Shown piece after piece: positions 1,587 to 25,360 of a stretch of 32,009 nucleotides of DNA. This stretch comes from a virus. The translations under genes and the position numbers were made by a program. Where the stretch lies: positions 1-32,009 of the IMG/VR virus record IMGVR_UViG_3300049827_000166. One strand, 5' to 3'. Numbering within the stretch: position 1 is the first letter of the stretch; every line of letters starts with the position of its first letter. The notes below the pieces were generated by a model, which did not search any database, had not been told where the DNA came from, and saw nothing but the letters and a program-made list of their open reading frames with translations.

Positions 1587-3166
1587 TCGACCGCCTCCGC
1601 ACGCTCTTCTCCCCCGTCCCCGTCGAGGAGCGGGACTACTGGCCGTACGTCAACTTCGGCGGCAACACCTACCCGGTTCCGTTCCTCAACCAGACGCTCC
1701 AGGGCACCAAGGAGGAGATCGGCTCGGACTTCCTCGGCCTCGGCAACGGCGCGCTCAAGGCCAATCCCGTCGTGTACGCCTGTATGCAGGCCCGCTCGTC
1801 GCTGTTCAGCGAGGCCCGGTTCATGTACCGGCAGGTCCGCAGCGGGACGCCGGGCGAGCTGTTCTCCAAGCCCGAGCTGGAGATCCTGCGCCACCCTTGG
1901 CCGGGCGGCACGACGGGCGACCTGCTGGCGCGGACGATGCAGGACGCCGACCTCGCTGGCAACGCCTTCTGGGTCCGCAAGCCGGGCCGCCTCGTGCGCC
2001 TGCGCCCCGACTGGGTGACGTTCATCCACGGCTCGTACAACGAACCGCAGATGGATATGTGGGACCCGGACGCCGAGCTGCTGGGCTACGCCTACCAGCC
2101 GGGCGGCCCCGGCAACGGCGACCCCGTGTTCTACCAGGCGACCGAGGTCGCACACTTCGCCCCGATGCCCGACCCGATCGCGCCGGCTCGCGGCATGTCC
2201 TGGCTCACGCCCCTCATCCGCGAGGTGACCGCGGACAGCCAGATGACGACGTTCAAGAACGCCTACCTCGTCAACGGCGCCACGCCCAACCTCGTCCTGA
2301 CGGGTGTGCCCGGTTCCTCGCAGGAGGCGTTCAAGGAGTGGGTGGCGGCCTTTGAGAAGGGCCACAAGGGCGTGGCCAACTCGTTCAAGTCCCTGTACCT
2401 GACGGCCACGATGGACGCCAAGGTCATCGGCTCGAACATGGGCAACGCGGGCCTCGACTTCAAGGCCGTGCAGGGGCTCGGTGAGACGCGCATCGCCGCC
2501 GCGGCTGGCGTGCCGGCAGCCGTTGTCGGCATCTCCGAAGGCCTGGCCGGATCGTCGCTCAACGCGGGCAACTTCGCCGCGTCCATGCGCCGCTTCGCCG
2601 ACCTGACGATGCGCCCCGCCTGGCGTAACGCCTGCGGCTCGTTCGAGCGGATCGTGGCCGTCCCCGGCGACGCCGAGCTCTGGTATGACGACCGCGACAT
2701 CCCCGCGCTCAAGGACGACATCAAGGACTACGCCGAGGTTCAGAGCCTCCAGGCGCAGGCCGTGCGCGGGTACGTCGATGCCGGGTTCGAGCCGGATGCC
2801 GTGATCGACGCTATCAACGCGGGCGACCTGAAGCGGCTCATCGGCAAGCACACCGGCCTCTACTCCGTCCAGCTCCAGCCGCCGATGCCCGAGCAGCCGG
2901 AGCCTGAGCCTGCGCCAGAGGACACGACCGAGGACGACACCGAGGACGTCGCGGAGGAGCAGCCCGCCCGGGACCTCGCATTCGAGGCCCTGTCCGTGAT
3001 GCGCACGATGGCCGAGCGGGAGCAGCCGGTGCCGGTCATCAACAACTACGTGACGATGCCTGAGCCGCCACCCGTTCCCGATCCGCCCGAGGTCCGAGAC
3101 ACGGTGACCGACCTGCAGTACGACGACCTCGGCCGCATCGTCCGCATCAGCGAGGTGCCGGTGTGA
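1577..3166 (+). CDS. Portal protein, HK97-type
   Basis: A 529-residue protein directly after the terminase, of the expected size and position for the dodecameric portal through which DNA enters and leaves the head. Recognisable portal features are the N-terminal ANPVVYACMQARSSLFSEA helix region, the ILRHPWPGGTTGDLL segment, the AGNAFWV strand, and the AGVPAAVVGISEGLAGSSLN region followed by a long helical crown. The last 90 residues are Pro/Glu/Asp-rich (PEQPEPEPAPEDTTEDDTED), then a short tail ending in [15 protein letters not shown]. That tail resembles the C-terminus of the next gene. The stop overlaps the next GTG start by 4 nt. Confidence 0.95.
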   Translation: MGMIDRLRTLFSPVPVEERDYWPYVNFGGNTYPVPFLNQTLQGTKEEIGSDFLGLGNGALKANPVVYACMQARSSLFSEARFMYRQVRSGTPGELFSKPELEILRHPWPGGTTGDLLARTMQDADLAGNAFWVRKPGRLVRLRPDWVTFIHGSYNEPQMDMWDPDAELLGYAYQPGGPGNGDPVFYQATEVAHFAPMPDPIAPARGMSWLTPLIREVTADSQMTTFKNAYLVNGATPNLVLTGVPGSSQEAFKEWVAAFEKGHKGVANSFKSLYLTATMDAKVIGSNMGNAGLDFKAVQGLGETRIAAAAGVPAAVVGISEGLAGSSLNAGNFAASMRRFADLTMRPAWRNACGSFERIVAVPGDAELWYDDRDIPALKDDIKDYAEVQSLQAQAVRGYVDAGFEPDAVIDAINAGDLKRLIGKHTGLYSVQLQPPMPEQPEPEPAPEDTTEDDTEDVAEEQPARDLAFEALSVMRTMAEREQPVPVINNYVTMPEPPPVPDPPEVRDTVTDLQYDDLGRIVRISEVPV

Positions 3167-3549
3167 GCGCTCGGGACGAAGCCCTCCGGGCGGCGCTCGC
3201 GGCCACGCCGCGGGCTGGTATCGCCATCGACCCGGCTGACGTCCTCGCCACAATCCGCGGCCCTCAGGGTCCTCAGGGGCCGCAGGGCGATCGTGGGCCC
3301 GAGGGCCAGCAGGGAGAGCCGGGCCCGAAGGGCGAGCCCGGACCGCAGGGGCCGCGTGGCGCACAGGGCATCCCCGGCACGCCCGGCCCGGCAGGGATGG
3401 GCGCGCCGATCGTTCTGCGGGCAGCCATCGTCCGCGATGCCGGCGGCTACATCAAGGAGATCCGCCAGGAGTTCTCTGACGGCTCGATGGTCACTCAGAC
3501 GGTGCGGCGCGACTCGGCCGGCCGCGTAACGCAGATCGTAAGGAGCTGA
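3163..3549 (+). CDS. Collagen-like virion protein
   Basis: A 128-residue protein starting at GTG in a GTGA overlap with the portal stop. Residues 33-75 are an almost uninterrupted run of Gly-X-Y triplets (about 14, for example [16 protein letters not shown] and [16 protein letters not shown]), the signature of a collagen-like triple helix. A 47-residue C-terminal part follows that could trimerise or anchor it. Collagen-like repeats are known in phage fibres and head decorations. Its place beside the portal suggests a head or neck fibre, which is inference. The C-terminal [12 protein letters not shown] echoes the DDLGRIVRIS ending of the portal. Confidence 0.8.
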
Positions 3550-3998: not shown

Positions 3999-4376
3999 AT
4001 GGCTGACAACATCGCCATCACGGCGGGCTCCGGCACCACGGTCGGCACGGACGAGCGGACCATCAACTCGGTGGCCGTCCAGGTCCAACGCGTCGACGAG
4101 CAGGGCGGGACGGGCTGGGTCACGGGCCAGTCGGCAGTGACGGCCTCGGCGGCCACGCTCATCGCCGCCCGCGAGACGCGTAAGTACGCCACGATCCTCA
4201 ACGGCTGCAACGTGACGATCTACGTCGGGCCGGCCACCGTCACGACGGCCAACGGCTTCGCGCTCGCGCCGGGTGCCGCGCTCACCGTCCCGACCACCGT
4301 CCTCATCCAGCAGATCGCCGCCTCGATCACGGGCCTCACGGGCACGACGTACTACCAGGAGGTGTACGACGCGTGA
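3999..4376 (+). CDS. Small beta-rich virion protein (hypothetical)
   Basis: A 125-residue protein with no catalytic motif. It is a sequence of short Thr/Val/Ala strands (QSAVTASAATLIAARETRKYATILNGCNVTIYVGPATVTTANGFAL). The ARETRKYATILNG...VTIYVGP...LAPGAALTV pattern matches a widespread class of small phage structural proteins with a single compact beta-sandwich, often next to head or fibre genes. I infer a virion decoration or adaptor role. The start ATG lies 4 nt after the previous stop, and the stop overlaps the next start. Confidence 0.55.
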   Translation: MADNIAITAGSGTTVGTDERTINSVAVQVQRVDEQGGTGWVTGQSAVTASAATLIAARETRKYATILNGCNVTIYVGPATVTTANGFALAPGAALTVPTTVLIQQIAASITGLTGTTYYQEVYDA

Positions 4377-5446: not shown

Positions 5447-6157
5447 ATGAGCGTGCTGCTGCTCTACGGCGGATCGCTGGACATCCTCGTCCAGCCAGCG
5501 GCAGCAGCCGTCACCATCGCGGGCGCGACGCCTGCCGTCGTCGCCCAGAACTACATCCTCGTCCAGCCGGCGGCGGCTACGGTCGCCATCGCGGGAGCGA
5601 CGCCCGCCGTCGGCACGCCGGTCAGCATCGCACCGAGCGCCGCGGCGGTCATGATCGGCACCGCAACGCCCGCCATCGTCGCCCAGAACTGGCCCAAGGC
5701 CCTGCCAGCGGCAGCGGCCGTCGCTATCACCACGGCCACGCCAGCCATCGTGGCACAGAACTGGCCGAAGGCGCTGCCAGCCGCAGCCGCCGTCACGATC
5801 GCGGGTGCGACCCCGACGATCACGACGAACGTCCTGGTCTTGCCGTCCGCAGCGGCCATCACCATCGCAGGTGCTACCCCGACGATCACCAGCTGGGTGC
5901 TCACCCAGCCCGCCGCCGCGGCGATGTCGATTGCGGGTGTCGCCCCGACCATCACCGTCGAGGCGAACGTCTACATCACGCCCGAAGCGGTCGGACTGAC
6001 GATCACGGGCGCGGTGCCGCTGGTGGACGACGGCGAGGAGCTGGTCCAGCTGGTGCAGTACGGCCACGGCCCCCGGCGCCAGCCATTCGTCCGACCGTTC
6101 GTCGTGGACGTGTTCACCGACGACGAGGAAGTCCTGCTGATGCTCTATGCCGCATGA
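5447..6157 (+). CDS. Tandem-repeat beta protein, about eight 22-24-residue repeats
   Basis: A 236-residue protein whose residues 14-195 are about eight imperfect tandem repeats. The consensus is roughly LPAAAAVTIAGATPAIVAQN with a short variable linker (NYIL, GTPVS, NWPKA, TNVLV, SWVLT, EANVY). Each repeat would form two short beta strands joined at the conserved T/A-P turn, suggesting an extended beta-solenoid or a string of small domains. The C-terminal 40 residues are different and acidic (DDGEELVQLV; VDVFTDDEEVLLMLYAA) and may be the attachment part. Function unknown. It lies directly before the protease-capsid gene and overlaps a possible early start of it, which suggests virion association. 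Confidence 0.65.
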   Translation: MSVLLLYGGSLDILVQPAAAAVTIAGATPAVVAQNYILVQPAAATVAIAGATPAVGTPVSIAPSAAAVMIGTATPAIVAQNWPKALPAAAAVAITTATPAIVAQNWPKALPAAAAVTIAGATPTITTNVLVLPSAAAITIAGATPTITSWVLTQPAAAAMSIAGVAPTITVEANVYITPEAVGLTITGAVPLVDDGEELVQLVQYGHGPRRQPFVRPFVVDVFTDDEEVLLMLYAA

Positions 6158-20664: not shown

Positions 20665-21153
20665 ATGACCGAAGACAGCATCACCATCAGCGCAGGGGCG
20701 CAAGTCGCCAACATCGAACCCGGCACCTACCTCGTCACCCTCATCGAGATCGGCGAGATCCGCACGATCCTTCCGCAGACCGGGCCCAACGCCGGCAAGG
20801 AGGTCAACCTCCGCGACTGGACGTTCGCCCTGGAGGACGGCACCGAGATCCGGGGTAGCGCCTCGGTCGCCTCGGGGCCCAAGTCCAAGCAGTTCGCCTG
20901 GATCACCGCCCTGCTCGGGGGCACGCCCCCGTCCATCGGGCAGAACATCCAGTTCTCCCAGCTCGTCGGCCGGGAGGCCCACGCGGCGATTGCCGTGGAC
21001 GAGGGCGGCTGGCCGAAGATCACTGGCCTGACAGCGATCCCGAAGGCGCGTCTCGCGGCCCCGGCTGCGGTTGCCGCCCCGCCGCCCACCAAGGCGACGG
21101 CCCGCGTCGTTGCCCCGGTCGCGCTGGGCGCGGCAGACGATCTGCCGTTCTGA
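20665..21153 (+). CDS. Single-strand DNA-binding-like OB-fold protein
   Basis: A 162-residue protein. The core (EPGTYLVTLIEIGEIRT, VNLRDWTFALEDGTEIRG, SKQFAWITALLGG, AHAAIAVDEGG) is beta-rich like a DUF669/OB-fold phage protein. The last residues, AADDLPF, match the acidic amphipathic tip DDDIPF of bacterial SSB that recruits repair and replication proteins, after a disordered Ala/Pro linker. It likely coats single-stranded DNA during phage replication and recruits partners. It sits directly before nuclease and primase-helicase genes, which supports a replication role. The leader contains AAGGAACG. Confidence 0.7.
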   Translation: MTEDSITISAGAQVANIEPGTYLVTLIEIGEIRTILPQTGPNAGKEVNLRDWTFALEDGTEIRGSASVASGPKSKQFAWITALLGGTPPSIGQNIQFSQLVGREAHAAIAVDEGGWPKITGLTAIPKARLAAPAAVAAPPPTKATARVVAPVALGAADDLPF

Positions 21154-21154
21154 C

Positions 21155-21760
21155 GTGACAGCCCCGACCAGGTCGGCGATTCCGACCACCTACCGAGGCA
21201 CCAACTTCCGCAGCCGCCTCGAGGCGCGGTGGGCGGCGTTCTTCGACCTGGTCGGCTGGCGTGTCGTTTACGAAGTCGGGGAGGGTGACCGATACCTCCC
21301 CGACTTCCTCGTGCTGGGTGATTGGCCGTTCTTTGTCGAGGTCGGCCCTTGTGTCACTCGGTCCGAATACGCCGCAAAGAGCAGGGACGCCGACAGGAGC
21401 GCAAGTCAGCTTGGCCGTGACGTGCTCGTCGTCGGCGTGTCGCCGGTCGCGTGGCGCGAGCCGGATCCGCTCGAACACGCTGCCGCTGGCTTGTTCGGCG
21501 AGCTACTGCGCGATCCAGAGGATGGCAGCGTCCTAGATTGGTCGGCGGGGATGTGGGGCAGATGCTTCACCTGCCGGGCGGTCGGCGTTGTCCATGACTA
21601 CCAGACGTTCGCGCTCCGGCCATGTGGGCACCACCAGGGCGGATCGTGGGGCGACCACATTCGCTCCGACGAGCTGGAAGCCCTCTGGCGCCATGCCGGC
21701 AACGATACCCAGTGGCAGCCGGAGTCCGTCGGCAGCATCATCCGTCGGCTCGGTCGATGA
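21155..21760 (+). CDS. PD-(D/E)XK nuclease-like protein with altered active site
   Basis: A 201-residue protein starting at GTG 1 nt after the SSB-like stop. The N-terminal half matches the phage PD-(D/E)XK endonuclease pattern: FRSRLEARWAAFFDLVGW, RYLPDFLVL (D50) and FFVEVGP (E62). In related proteins the E is usually followed by x-Lys (EVK); here Gly takes the Lys place, so catalysis may be impaired or use another residue. The C-terminal part has a CFTC...CGHH zinc-like motif. Its codon use has noticeably more A/T at third positions than neighbouring genes, hinting at later acquisition. Confidence 0.68.
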   Translation: MTAPTRSAIPTTYRGTNFRSRLEARWAAFFDLVGWRVVYEVGEGDRYLPDFLVLGDWPFFVEVGPCVTRSEYAAKSRDADRSASQLGRDVLVVGVSPVAWREPDPLEHAAAGLFGELLRDPEDGSVLDWSAGMWGRCFTCRAVGVVHDYQTFALRPCGHHQGGSWGDHIRSDELEALWRHAGNDTQWQPESVGSIIRRLGR

Positions 21761-23904
21761 CCGCGATGCCCGCTGCCGCACTCCCGCGTCCAACGACGGA
21801 GGACCGCATCCGCGCGGCGCTGTGGTTTGCCGCGCGCGGGTTCGGGGTGTTCTCCGTCTGGAGCACCGACCCCGACGGCGTGTGTCGCTGCAAGGACCGC
21901 GCGAAGTGTGAGCAGCCGGGCAAGCACCCCGTGCCCGGCATCGGGTTCAAGGCCGCGACGACGGACCCGGGCCGCATCCGCGCGATGCTCGACACGCGGA
22001 TGGAGCCCAACTGGGGGATGCTCCCGCCGGAGGGCGTGTTCGTCCTCGACGTGGACGGTGACGGCGTCGCCCGCCTGGACGACCTAGAGGCCCAGTACGG
22101 TCCGCTCCCTCCGACCCTGCGCACCAACACGGCGCACGGTCAGCACGTCTTCCTCCGCTGGCCGGCCGACATGCCCCGGCCCATCGGGCAGATGTTCGGG
22201 TACGTCACCCGCTGGGGCACGGGAGCGACCACGGGCTATGTCATCGGCCCCCGCAGTGTCCACGCGACGGGCGCGGTGTACGCGCCGGTCGAGCCCCTGT
22301 GCGAGATCGCCGAGCTGCCCGAGGCATGGGCACAGGCAACGATCGCGCCTGCGCACGAGGAGGCGATCGTCATCGGCCGGGGCGCGTACGAGCTGCCCGA
22401 GCCCGGCTACAGCGGCGGGCGGTACAACGAGATCCTGCGCTACGTCGGCAGCCGCTACATGCGCGGCGACTCCGAGGAGGAGGTCTGGGCCGGCGTCCTG
22501 ATGGTGCTCGCCCCGCGGTTCGCCGACGGGCTCTCCGAGCCCGAGTTGCGGAGCCGGTTCGAGCGGGCGTGGAAGACCACGCCAGGGAAGTTCGGACCTC
22601 CCAACGCCCGCGTGGCCGCGGAGCCGCTGATCGTCGCTCCTGATGCCCCTGCGGAGCCCGTGGTGAGCCTGGACTGGCCCGCCCCGCCAACCGACATCGT
22701 GTACCGCGGGGCGGTGGGCGAAATTGTGCGGCTGGTGGCCGACCGGACGGAGGCCGACCCCGTCGGCATCCTCGGCTCCGTGCTGGCCGCAGCCGGCGTG
22801 TGCATGGGCCGCTACCGGACGATCTACCAGGGCAGCGACCAGGGGGCCAACCTGTTCGTCGTCCTCGTCGGCGACAGCAGCAGCGGGCGCAAGGGCACCG
22901 CGGGCAGCATCGCCCGCGACATCATGGCGGGCGCGTGGCCCGACTGGGAGCAGCTCGTGGTCGCCGGGCTGGGCTCGGGCGAGGGGCTGATCTCGCACCT
23001 CAAGAAGGTCGAGGACAGCGAGTACCGGGCGCTCGTCATGGAGAGCGAGCTCGGCCGGCTGCTCACCGTCATGGCCCGCGACGGATCGACCCTGTCGCCC
23101 GTCGTGCGCGATGCGTGGGACGGCGTCCCGATGGGCCGCTTCCTCGCCCGCGAGTCGGCCCTGGTCCGCTGGCACCACGTCGGCGTCATCGCCCACATCA
23201 CGCCGGTCGAGCTGCGCGAGAAGCTCACGAACACCGACGCCGCCAACGGCTTCGGCAACCGCTTCCTGTGGCTGGCTGTGCGGCGCACCCGGCTGGTGCC
23301 GTTCCCCGAATCGCCCAAGAACCTCATCCCGTCGGACCTGTCCAACTCGATCAGCCGGGCGATCGAGGCCGCCCAGGTGCCGGGCGAGGTCGCGCTGTCG
23401 CCCACGGCTCGCGACCACTGGGAGGCCCTGTACGCCGAGCTGGCGATGCGCCCGCGGCTCGGGCTGCGCGGCGCGATGGTCGCCCGCATCGAGGCCCAGA
23501 TCATCCGGCTCGCCCTGGTGTATGCGCTGCTGGACCGGTCCGAGTTCATCGAGGTCGCGCACCTCGAGGCTGCCCGCGCCCTGTGGGACTACAGCGAGCG
23601 GAGCGTGACCCACGTCTTCGGCGAGTCCACCGGCAACCGCAACGCCGACGAGCTCCGGTCGCGGCTCGCCGACGGCCCGCTGGAGTGGGAGGAGGCCCGC
23701 AAGGCGCTGGGCGTCCGCAGTGGCGCCGACCTGACAGATGCCGTCGATCTGCTGGCCTCGCTCGGCCTCGCCGAGGTCGTCAAGGCCGAGCGCCGCGGCG
23801 GCGGCCGCCGGGGCCGCGTCATCAGAACCCCGGTCCGAAACCCTGCAAACCCTGCAAACCGCGCTAGAGCCCGCGCGCACGAAACGGCCGAAACGGAGGG
23901 ATAG
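21757..23904 (+). CDS. Primase-polymerase fused to a helicase-like ATPase domain
   Basis: A 715-residue replication protein starting in an ATGA overlap. Residues 15-180 are a bifunctional prim-pol: a zinc-type CRCKDRAKCEQPGKHP motif (C43, C45, C51, H57), DVDGD with D98 and D100, AHGQHVFLRW (H130), and GYVIGPRSVH. Residues 310-640 resemble a DUF3987/SF3-type ATPase with Walker A GDSSSGRKGT (372-381) and ALVMESELGR as a Walker B candidate. It would prime and unwind phage DNA. The last 60 residues (RRGGGRRGRVIRT...) are basic and disordered. Its 3' end forms one arm of a large inverted repeat. Confidence 0.85.
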   Translation: MTAMPAAALPRPTTEDRIRAALWFAARGFGVFSVWSTDPDGVCRCKDRAKCEQPGKHPVPGIGFKAATTDPGRIRAMLDTRMEPNWGMLPPEGVFVLDVDGDGVARLDDLEAQYGPLPPTLRTNTAHGQHVFLRWPADMPRPIGQMFGYVTRWGTGATTGYVIGPRSVHATGAVYAPVEPLCEIAELPEAWAQATIAPAHEEAIVIGRGAYELPEPGYSGGRYNEILRYVGSRYMRGDSEEEVWAGVLMVLAPRFADGLSEPELRSRFERAWKTTPGKFGPPNARVAAEPLIVAPDAPAEPVVSLDWPAPPTDIVYRGAVGEIVRLVADRTEADPVGILGSVLAAAGVCMGRYRTIYQGSDQGANLFVVLVGDSSSGRKGTAGSIARDIMAGAWPDWEQLVVAGLGSGEGLISHLKKVEDSEYRALVMESELGRLLTVMARDGSTLSPVVRDAWDGVPMGRFLARESALVRWHHVGVIAHITPVELREKLTNTDAANGFGNRFLWLAVRRTRLVPFPESPKNLIPSDLSNSISRAIEAAQVPGEVALSPTARDHWEALYAELAMRPRLGLRGAMVARIEAQIIRLALVYALLDRSEFIEVAHLEAARALWDYSERSVTHVFGESTGNRNADELRSRLADGPLEWEEARKALGVRSGADLTDAVDLLASLGLAEVVKAERRGGGRRGRVIRTPVRNPANPANRARARAHETAETEG

Positions 23905-24011
23905 AACGACATGACTAGTGATCTGTTTACAGAGTTTCAGAATATTGCAGGGCTGCGCGCGTACGTGCGCGGGTCCCTGCGCGGTTTGCAGGGTTTGCAT
24001 AGTTTCGGATC
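23832..24011. repeat. Long inverted repeat with tandem 9-mers, possible replication origin or RNA structure
   Basis: Arms 23832-23864 and 23979-24011 are inverted copies, 30 of 33 bases identical. Each arm holds two tandem copies of CCTGCAAAC (one copy imperfect in the right arm). Further inward, CCCGCGC-type blocks also pair. The 114-bp centre includes an unusually A/T-rich tract at about 23909-23950. It spans the last coding bases of the prim-pol gene and the gap before the nuclease gene. Iteron-like repeats plus an A/T-rich tract beside a primase fit an origin; a long RNA hairpin or regulator site is the alternative. Confidence 0.6.
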
Positions 24012-24026
24012 AGCCGGGTCGGTTCG

Positions 24027-24791
24027 ATGACTACCGCCACGGCGCCGAAGCGCACGCCGCTGGCCGGACCGCGCCGGACGAAGAACCACCAGTACTACTT
24101 CAACGGCGAGGGGCCGTGGCCGGGGGTGACGACGATCACCGGCGTCCTCGACAAGCCGCCGCTCGTCAACTGGAAGATGAACCAGGTCGCACTCGCCGCG
24201 ATCGAGCAGGCCGAGCGGCTCATCGAGGATCGCGAGTCGGGCAAGACCGAAGCCGCGGTCAAGTACCTCACGACCCTGTCTACCACGGCGATGGACCGTG
24301 GCTCGCGCATCCACGGCAGCATCGAGCAGATCCTCCGCCGCGAGCCGGTCGAGGTCGACCCCCGTGACGAGGCCGCGGTCCAGGGTGCCCGTGCCTGGCT
24401 GAACCAGCAGGCCACCGAGCACGCCCTCCGGCCGCTGCACGTCGAGGCGTACCTCATCCACGCGACGCTCCGCTACGGCGGGACGCTCGACCTCATCGCC
24501 GAGATCGACGGCGAGGTCTGGCTGCTCGACTGGAAGACGGGCAAGTCCGTGGCGCGGCCGTCGGGCGACGTGTACTCCGACCACCGGCTCCAGCTCGCGG
24601 CCTATGCCCACGCCGAGTTCATCGCGAAGCCGGGGGACCCCAAGGAGTACCCGCTTCCCACGATCAACCGCTTCGGCATCGTCCACGTCACCGACGGCGG
24701 CACGCGGCTGTACGAGGCCGACGTCACCGAACGCGACTGGATCGCCTTTCGGGCGTGTCTGAACCTGTGGGACTGGCGGAGGGGCAGGTGA
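24027..24791 (+). CDS. RecB/Cas4-like PD-(D/E)XK exonuclease
   Basis: A 254-residue protein. Motifs are in the expected order: helix with RGSRIHGSIEQ (H96), GGTLDLIAEI (D155), WLLDWKTGKS (D168-x-K170), and the QLAAY motif (Q189, Y193), which is the QxxxY signature of RecB/lambda-exonuclease-type nucleases. It would resect or process DNA ends for phage recombination or replication, working with the SSB-like protein. There are no cysteines for a Cas4 iron-sulfur cluster, so the name refers only to nuclease fold. Start ATG follows the inverted repeat after 15 nt. Confidence 0.85.
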   Translation: MTTATAPKRTPLAGPRRTKNHQYYFNGEGPWPGVTTITGVLDKPPLVNWKMNQVALAAIEQAERLIEDRESGKTEAAVKYLTTLSTTAMDRGSRIHGSIEQILRREPVEVDPRDEAAVQGARAWLNQQATEHALRPLHVEAYLIHATLRYGGTLDLIAEIDGEVWLLDWKTGKSVARPSGDVYSDHRLQLAAYAHAEFIAKPGDPKEYPLPTINRFGIVHVTDGGTRLYEADVTERDWIAFRACLNLWDWRRGR

Positions 24792-25360
24792 TGCACCGCC
24801 ACCGCTGGGTCCGTGGCTACTACGACCAGGCGAGTCGCTGCGACTACGTCGGCTGCGATGCCATCGATGCCGACGTGCTGCGCATCCTTGCCATCGACCC
24901 CGGCACCGAGTCGTCGGCATGGATGCACCTCGAGGACGGGATGCCGGTGGACTTCGGCATCGTCCCCAACGGTGCGCTGATCGGGATGCTCGAGGACGAG
25001 TGGCGCTACCGCGAGGGCCAGGCGCCGTCCGTCGTGGTGATCGAGCAGGTCGCGTCCTACGGGATGCCCGTCGGGCGCGAGGTGTTCGAGACGGTGCGCT
25101 GGTCGGGCCGCTTCGAGCAGGCGTGCCAGCCGGCGGCGGTCGTGCAGCTCACGCGCAAGGCGGTCGTCACCCACCTCTGCGGCTCGTCCCGCGCCAAGGA
25201 CGCCAACGTGCGCGCCGCCCTCATCGACCGCTACGGCGGCAAGGCGGCGGCCATTGGCACGAAGGCCGAGCCCGGACCGCTCCACGGCATCGCGAAGGAC
25301 GTGTGGTCGGCACTCGCCATCGCGTGTGTCTACGCCGACCGGAAGGAGGCTGCCGCGTGA
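24791..25360 (+). CDS. RuvC-like Holliday-junction resolvase with a zinc-type N-terminus
   Basis: A 189-residue protein. Residues 1-25 (MHRHRWVRGYYDQASRCDYVGCD) have His and Cys residues spaced like a small zinc finger. From residue 30 an RNase H/RuvC fold follows: LRILAIDPGTESSAWMHL (D36), VVVIEQVASYGMPVG (E85), and the C-terminal HGIAKDVWSALAIA. The pattern matches phage RuvC-like resolvases that cut Holliday junctions before packaging. ATG 24791 lies inside the previous stop; GTG 24788 in the same frame is the alternative. The stop overlaps the next GTG. Confidence 0.8.
   Translation: MHRHRWVRGYYDQASRCDYVGCDAIDADVLRILAIDPGTESSAWMHLEDGMPVDFGIVPNGALIGMLEDEWRYREGQAPSVVVIEQVASYGMPVGREVFETVRWSGRFEQACQPAAVVQLTRKAVVTHLCGSSRAKDANVRAALIDRYGGKAAAIGTKAEPGPLHGIAKDVWSALAIACVYADRKEAAA

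Follow-up and report, generated by a model that had tools for sequence, protein, structure and literature searches.

A candidate replication origin of inverted 9-bp iterons at the 3′ end of a phage primase-helicase gene

Inverted sets of 9-bp iterons flank an A/T-rich core at the 3′ end of a primase-helicase gene in an IMG/VR virus record. Comparison with related loci and analogy with known origins indicate that this element is very probably the site at which the phage starts replication, because relatives keep it in the same place and the letters of the repeat differ on both sides. The window, that is, the whole stretch of DNA analysed, is the 32,009-base record IMGVR_UViG_3300049827_000166, which carries terminase and tail genes and an integrase. 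Its replication and recombination block comprises genes for an SSB-like small protein with a DDLPF tail (20665–21153, + strand), for which no family match was found; the proposed initiator (21757–23904, + strand; start picked by comparison with relatives), in which prim-pol (PF09250) is joined to DUF3987 (PF13148), a P-loop helicase-like domain; a PD-(D/E)XK exonuclease (24027–24791, + strand), downstream of the element; and a RuvC-like resolvase (24755–25360). Elsewhere in the window, tandem 66–72 bp repeats at 5481–5972, among the structural genes, encode AAAAVTIAGATP-like units in a protein of 236 aa, and a small protein of the structural region (3163–3549) has a collagen-like Gly-X-Y run.

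A sequence-only reading had described a 33-bp inverted repeat with tandem 9-mers and an A/T-rich centre in a GC-rich genome, starting inside the coding end of the prim-pol gene, and all of these features were recovered. The arms (23832–23864 and 23979–24011) pair at exactly 30 of 33 positions; they extend without gaps to 43 nt (23834–23876 and 23967–24009, 86%), and their core of 31 nt has 29 pairs. In a scan that presumes gapless arms and covered 317 windows of 400 nt, no other inverted repeat of the record scores as high: this one reaches 25, the runner-up 17, and 25 dinucleotide shuffles give at most 12. CCTGCAAAC has three exact copies in the window, all within the element and arranged in tandem on the left at a 9-nt step. 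The left arm (23834–23864, + strand) carries forward iterons CTGCAAACC at 23843–23851 and 23852–23860, preceded by a weaker AAACC unit, and lies among the final codons of prim-pol, ahead of the stop at 23904. A conserved inner block, TAGAGCCCGCGC (23865–23876, + strand), follows and together with the arm end makes up ACCGCGCTRGMGCCCGCGC. The A/T-rich tract (23911–23945), the likely strand-opening site, has the highest A+T content in the window at lengths of 25, 35 and 45 nt (72, 69 and 62% vs 31% overall) and encloses a degenerate reversed iteron, TGTTTACAG (23924–23932, − strand, 7/9). Beyond an alternating G/C palindrome-like block, GCGCGCGTACGTGCGCG (23955–23971), the right arm (23979–24009, − strand) holds the reversed iterons GGTTTGCAG (23983–23991) and GGTTTGCAT (23992–24000), and the exonuclease gene starts 18 nt past it. 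The gap between the two genes is filled by a 39-codon ORF (23911–24029) with a Shine-Dalgarno-like AGGGA upstream and an ATGA overlap with the exonuclease start; similar small ORFs are present in two related contigs, L091 and L092, and since their frames shift between loci, the ORF probably reflects translational coupling or chance.

Prim-Pol–DUF3987 relatives were found by protein-based scans, and in every case the DNA 3′ of the helicase part was inspected. The same type of protein is encoded by L136, a contig of the closest phage (64% identical across 696 residues), by two Chloroflexota MAG contigs (L091 and L092) and by further genomes of the same class as these MAGs (L111, L113, L115, L117, L118, and L114); a Chloroflexota host is thus probable for the window. 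Loss of the repeats in relatives had been named as an outcome that would speak against an origin. Instead, the architecture is kept in all six relatives whose helicase is at least 49% identical and whose 3′ flank is intact (one phage contig and five loci in bacterial genomes), both arms having changed in concert. The window and these six (L136, L091, L092, L111, L113, and L115) have forward iterons on the left, reversed iterons on the right and one reversed iteron in the centre, 55–72 nt beyond the left iterons; each element contains 5–7 iteron matches against ~0.5–0.6 expected. The iteron cores are related yet distinct: CTGCAAACC in the window, CATGCAAAC in L136, CGCAAACCA in L111, CGACAACCA in L091/L092, GTGCAAAAG in L113, and GGTGCTAAC in L115. 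At 40% identity, L118 carries TATGCGAA as a 9-bp iteron in either orientation but lacks a single long gapless arm, and the L117 contig stops too soon past the helicase gene. No such element was found 3′ of the helicase in L114 (32%) and L137 (46%), which are more distant relatives, nor, by eye, downstream of the distant DUF3987 proteins of Streptomyces and Thermobifida phages.

The two arms of an element resemble each other more than they resemble arms elsewhere. Among six Prim-Pol–DUF3987 loci, mean arm identity is 0.86 within a locus vs 0.57 between loci, and only 2 of 720 left–right arm pairings do as well as the true one, a figure to be taken as a count and not as a probability, given how few the loci are and that they share ancestry. 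The conserved block ACCGCGCTRGMGCCCGCGC is common to the window and L091/L092 but is read in different frames (NRARAR vs TALAPA), and the L136 element, with arms of 41 nt at 95%, is wholly intergenic (4210–4354, between a stop at 4173 and a start at 4373). The change of frame and the intergenic copy show that selection acts on the DNA of the element, which bears out the earlier suggestion that this sequence is selected for more than protein; the overlap with coding sequence seen in the window is thus incidental.

Six phage contigs (L065–L070) share the prim-pol N-terminus and/or the exonuclease with the window at 55–80% and differ in their helicase parts. The window-type element is absent from the same place in all six. 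A significant inverted repeat was found in L067 alone among them, and this one differs in sequence and is built of GACTTCTTC units; the element thus goes with the helicase part and is not tied to the prim-pol N-terminus or the exonuclease. In L002/L067, L003/L070, L066, L068, and L069, the prim-pol N-terminus and the exonuclease are shared while the helicase part between them varies, a pattern of modular exchange, partly inside a gene.

The iteron-binding part of the protein may be a predicted winged-helix domain at its C-terminus (23620–23838, + strand). The 78 residues before the repeat were modelled as a winged helix (pLDDT 78; Z 9–10 to winged helices); the prediction for the whole helicase part reached a pLDDT of 40 and was set aside, and a sequence search against solved structures gave no match. 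DUF3987 domains have been predicted to be the helicases of mobile-element primases (PMC5862659). From the position of the element, its linkage to the helicase part and the co-variation of its arms, we infer that the Prim-Pol–DUF3987 protein recognises the iterons; its domains suggest that it also unwinds and primes.

Taken together, we consider it likely that 23834–24009 is an origin that is bound, opened, loaded and primed by the upstream protein with its primase, DUF3987 helicase and winged helix. The C-terminal winged helix would bind both inverted sets of 9-bp iterons, the bound protein probably forming two oligomers that face opposite ways. The A/T-rich core, with its further reversed iteron, would be opened between these oligomers, the protein would load its own helicase on each strand, and the prim-pol domain would prime bidirectional theta replication. 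An origin recognised by the neighbouring protein was also what the sequence-only reading had favoured, and conservation, DNA-level selection and the precedents of pWTY27 and SaPI/SCCmec support it; from these we infer both the contact and the start of replication. GC skew, proposed then as a check, shows no turn at the element and is uninformative.

An exact scan of viral contigs for CCTGCAAACCCTGCAAAC returned 56 matches, of which only those in L036 and L055 were useful; about half were rejected as another conserved element in other phages, and many as coding or low-complexity repeats. The inner block yielded four chance matches and is thus no marker by itself. That other element, GGGGTGCAAACCTGCAAACCCTGCAAACCTCGGTTTGCAG...CGCTAGCG...CCCCCCGCATG, is highly conserved and occurs in L009, L012, L024–L028, L030, L031, and ~20 more phage loci; the proteins flanking it in L049 have no family match, and it is possibly a packaging or regulatory site. 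In four contigs of unknown origin (L014, L016, L041, and L060), CCCTGCAAACCCTGCAAACCCTACAC flanks a poly-T/A-rich tract, in inverted arrangement in L016 and L060.

L036 and L055 carry the identical iteron CCCTGCAAA beside a helicase unrelated to that of the window, and a scan from these two contigs yielded nine phage loci of a second primase-associated helicase family. Inverted iterons are located 3′ of the helicase gene in all nine, and the repeat exceeds every control window in eight; L102 is the exception because of indels, and both it and L118 score low since their iterons are spaced with indels and the scan is gapless. Arm identity in this family is 0.96 within a locus vs 0.69 between loci. 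The arms match at 25/27 positions in register vs 9/18 when slid by one iteron (9 nt) in L103, and at 26/26 vs 8/17 in L105. Mirroring of variant iterons to this degree exceeds the needs of a list of binding sites and points to fold-back or to exchange between the arms.

RepA of the Streptomyces plasmid pWTY27 belongs to this second family (32% identity). Replication of pWTY27 needs repAB and 300 bp 3′ of repA, the latter in cis; this region has inverted GTGGGAAC iterons, and the RepA footprint spans 405–509 (PMC3583192). A 30-nt inverted repeat at L128 3610–3707 falls inside that footprint, and pCM32 and two further Streptomyces plasmids have inverted repeats at the same place. In a Streptomyces rubiginosohelvolus plasmid (L131, 3577–3860), the DNA 3′ of the RepA-like gene holds two perfect inverted repeats, one nested in the other (31 and 26 nt), which present this origin anatomy in very regular form. 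The window helicase has no detectable sequence similarity to pWTY27 RepA or the second family by BLASTP or profile comparison; hence pWTY27 is a precedent by anatomy and not by descent, and membership of the window element in the pWTY27 RepA replicon family was rejected for want of a homologous RepA. A wider proposal, to which we give somewhat less than an even chance, is that mirror-symmetric iteron origins form a shared, fast-diversifying class in prim-pol phages and plasmids that arose with two or more mutually unrelated families of helicase (DUF3987 and RepA-like). The iteron "key" of each element would be held identical on both arms by fold-back, through hairpin or cruciform recognition or arm exchange, and the helicase C-terminus and origin would be swapped between phages as one cassette.

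The element could instead be an operator for autoregulation and no origin, if the protein or a repressor switched the replication/recombination operon by binding to the inverted iterons. Inverted sites of 9 bp close to an A/T tract are typical of operators, plasmid Rep proteins often autoregulate via iterons, and the next gene begins just beyond the right arm. However, the element is internal to an operon, where it follows the initiator gene rather than preceding it, no promoter-like site was found, and its anatomy equals that of the proven pWTY27 origin, which makes an operator unlikely. The very stable fold (−99.6 kcal/mol, z −9.2) might suggest that the element acts as RNA, with a long hairpin in the mRNA terminating transcription or governing translation between the primase and exonuclease genes. 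This we find very unlikely: single-stranded DNA folds too (z −7.5), the stem mismatches in 16 loci comprise 8 G-U vs 12 A-C and thus no excess of RNA-only wobble pairs, and the element has neither a terminator-like T-run nor an Rfam match. An intrinsic terminator was rejected, as a short GC stem with a T-run was not found.

Fold-back could also be the signal in itself, if a cruciform or single-strand hairpin, and not the linear iterons, were recognised as a priming or recombination site, e.g. by the nearby Holliday-junction resolvase. Variant iterons are mirrored where the 9-nt shift fails (L103 and L105), symmetry exceeds the iterons in L104 and L136, and the pWTY27 authors propose stem-loop recognition (PMC3583192). 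Yet a loop of ~90–115 nt makes extrusion costly, the arms in L091 and L102 are just 74–78% paired and their iterons persist, and sequence exchange from arm to arm could yield the same mirroring. As a separate explanation this is very unlikely; fold-back recognition is compatible with an origin. That the repeat merely reflects NPANPAN codons and the 39-codon ORF, or chance, has practically nothing in its favour beyond a coding left arm and an ORF whose ATGA-overlapping frame spans the rest: frames differ in relatives, no shuffle or control window comes close, and the intergenic L136 copy already refutes it.

An origin at 23834–24009 thus remains our preferred reading. No described origin for DUF3987 primase-helicase phages was found in the literature searched, and the element offers a concrete candidate, testable by one plasmid experiment. 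The co-varying arms constitute a natural series for a winged-helix recognition code, and inverted 9-mers 3′ of a helicase gene may serve as a sequence rule for origins in uncultured phages.

Phage lambda ori likewise has iterons beside an A/T tract within the coding region of the initiator (gene O); the lambda iterons are located mid-gene on one side of the tract and rely on a host helicase, whereas in the window the arms flank the core and the initiator has its own helicase domain. Closer in layout is pWTY27, in which a prim-pol and a helicase-like protein act as initiator and a long inverted repeat of short iterons lies directly 3′ of the initiator gene, is needed in cis, is bound by RepA and supports bidirectional replication (PMC3583192); by analogy, the window would have counterparts of the last three features. 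The pWTY27 initiator is split over two genes (RepB, the prim-pol, and RepA) whereas that of the window is one fused protein, and the plasmid element, with GTGGGAAC as iteron, is wholly outside the gene and covers ~300 bp. The C-terminal domains of two helicases, SaPI Rep and SCCmec Cch2, bind iterons that immediately follow the respective helicase gene (PMC7581432, which cites Ubeda 2007), and by this description the SaPI ori of Staphylococcus islands and the putative Cch2 origin resemble the layout proposed for the window in pairing a self-loading helicase with iterons directly downstream of its gene; they differ in their DUF927 or D5/Primase_Cterm helicases and short iterons (AAGTG in Cch2). 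Binding of Cch2 is unaffected by deletion of an inverted repeat and affected only by deletion of direct repeats (PMC7581432), which counts against our reading. Iteron origins 3′ of a self-loading initiator helicase gene, of the SaPI/pWTY27 kind, are marked by tandem short iterons, an A/T-rich region beside or between them and a position adjoining or overlapping the 3′ end of the helicase gene; the window has all three, and its relatives share the position. By this analogy, the window element would be a variant of a known design, the iteron origin 3′ of an initiator helicase gene.
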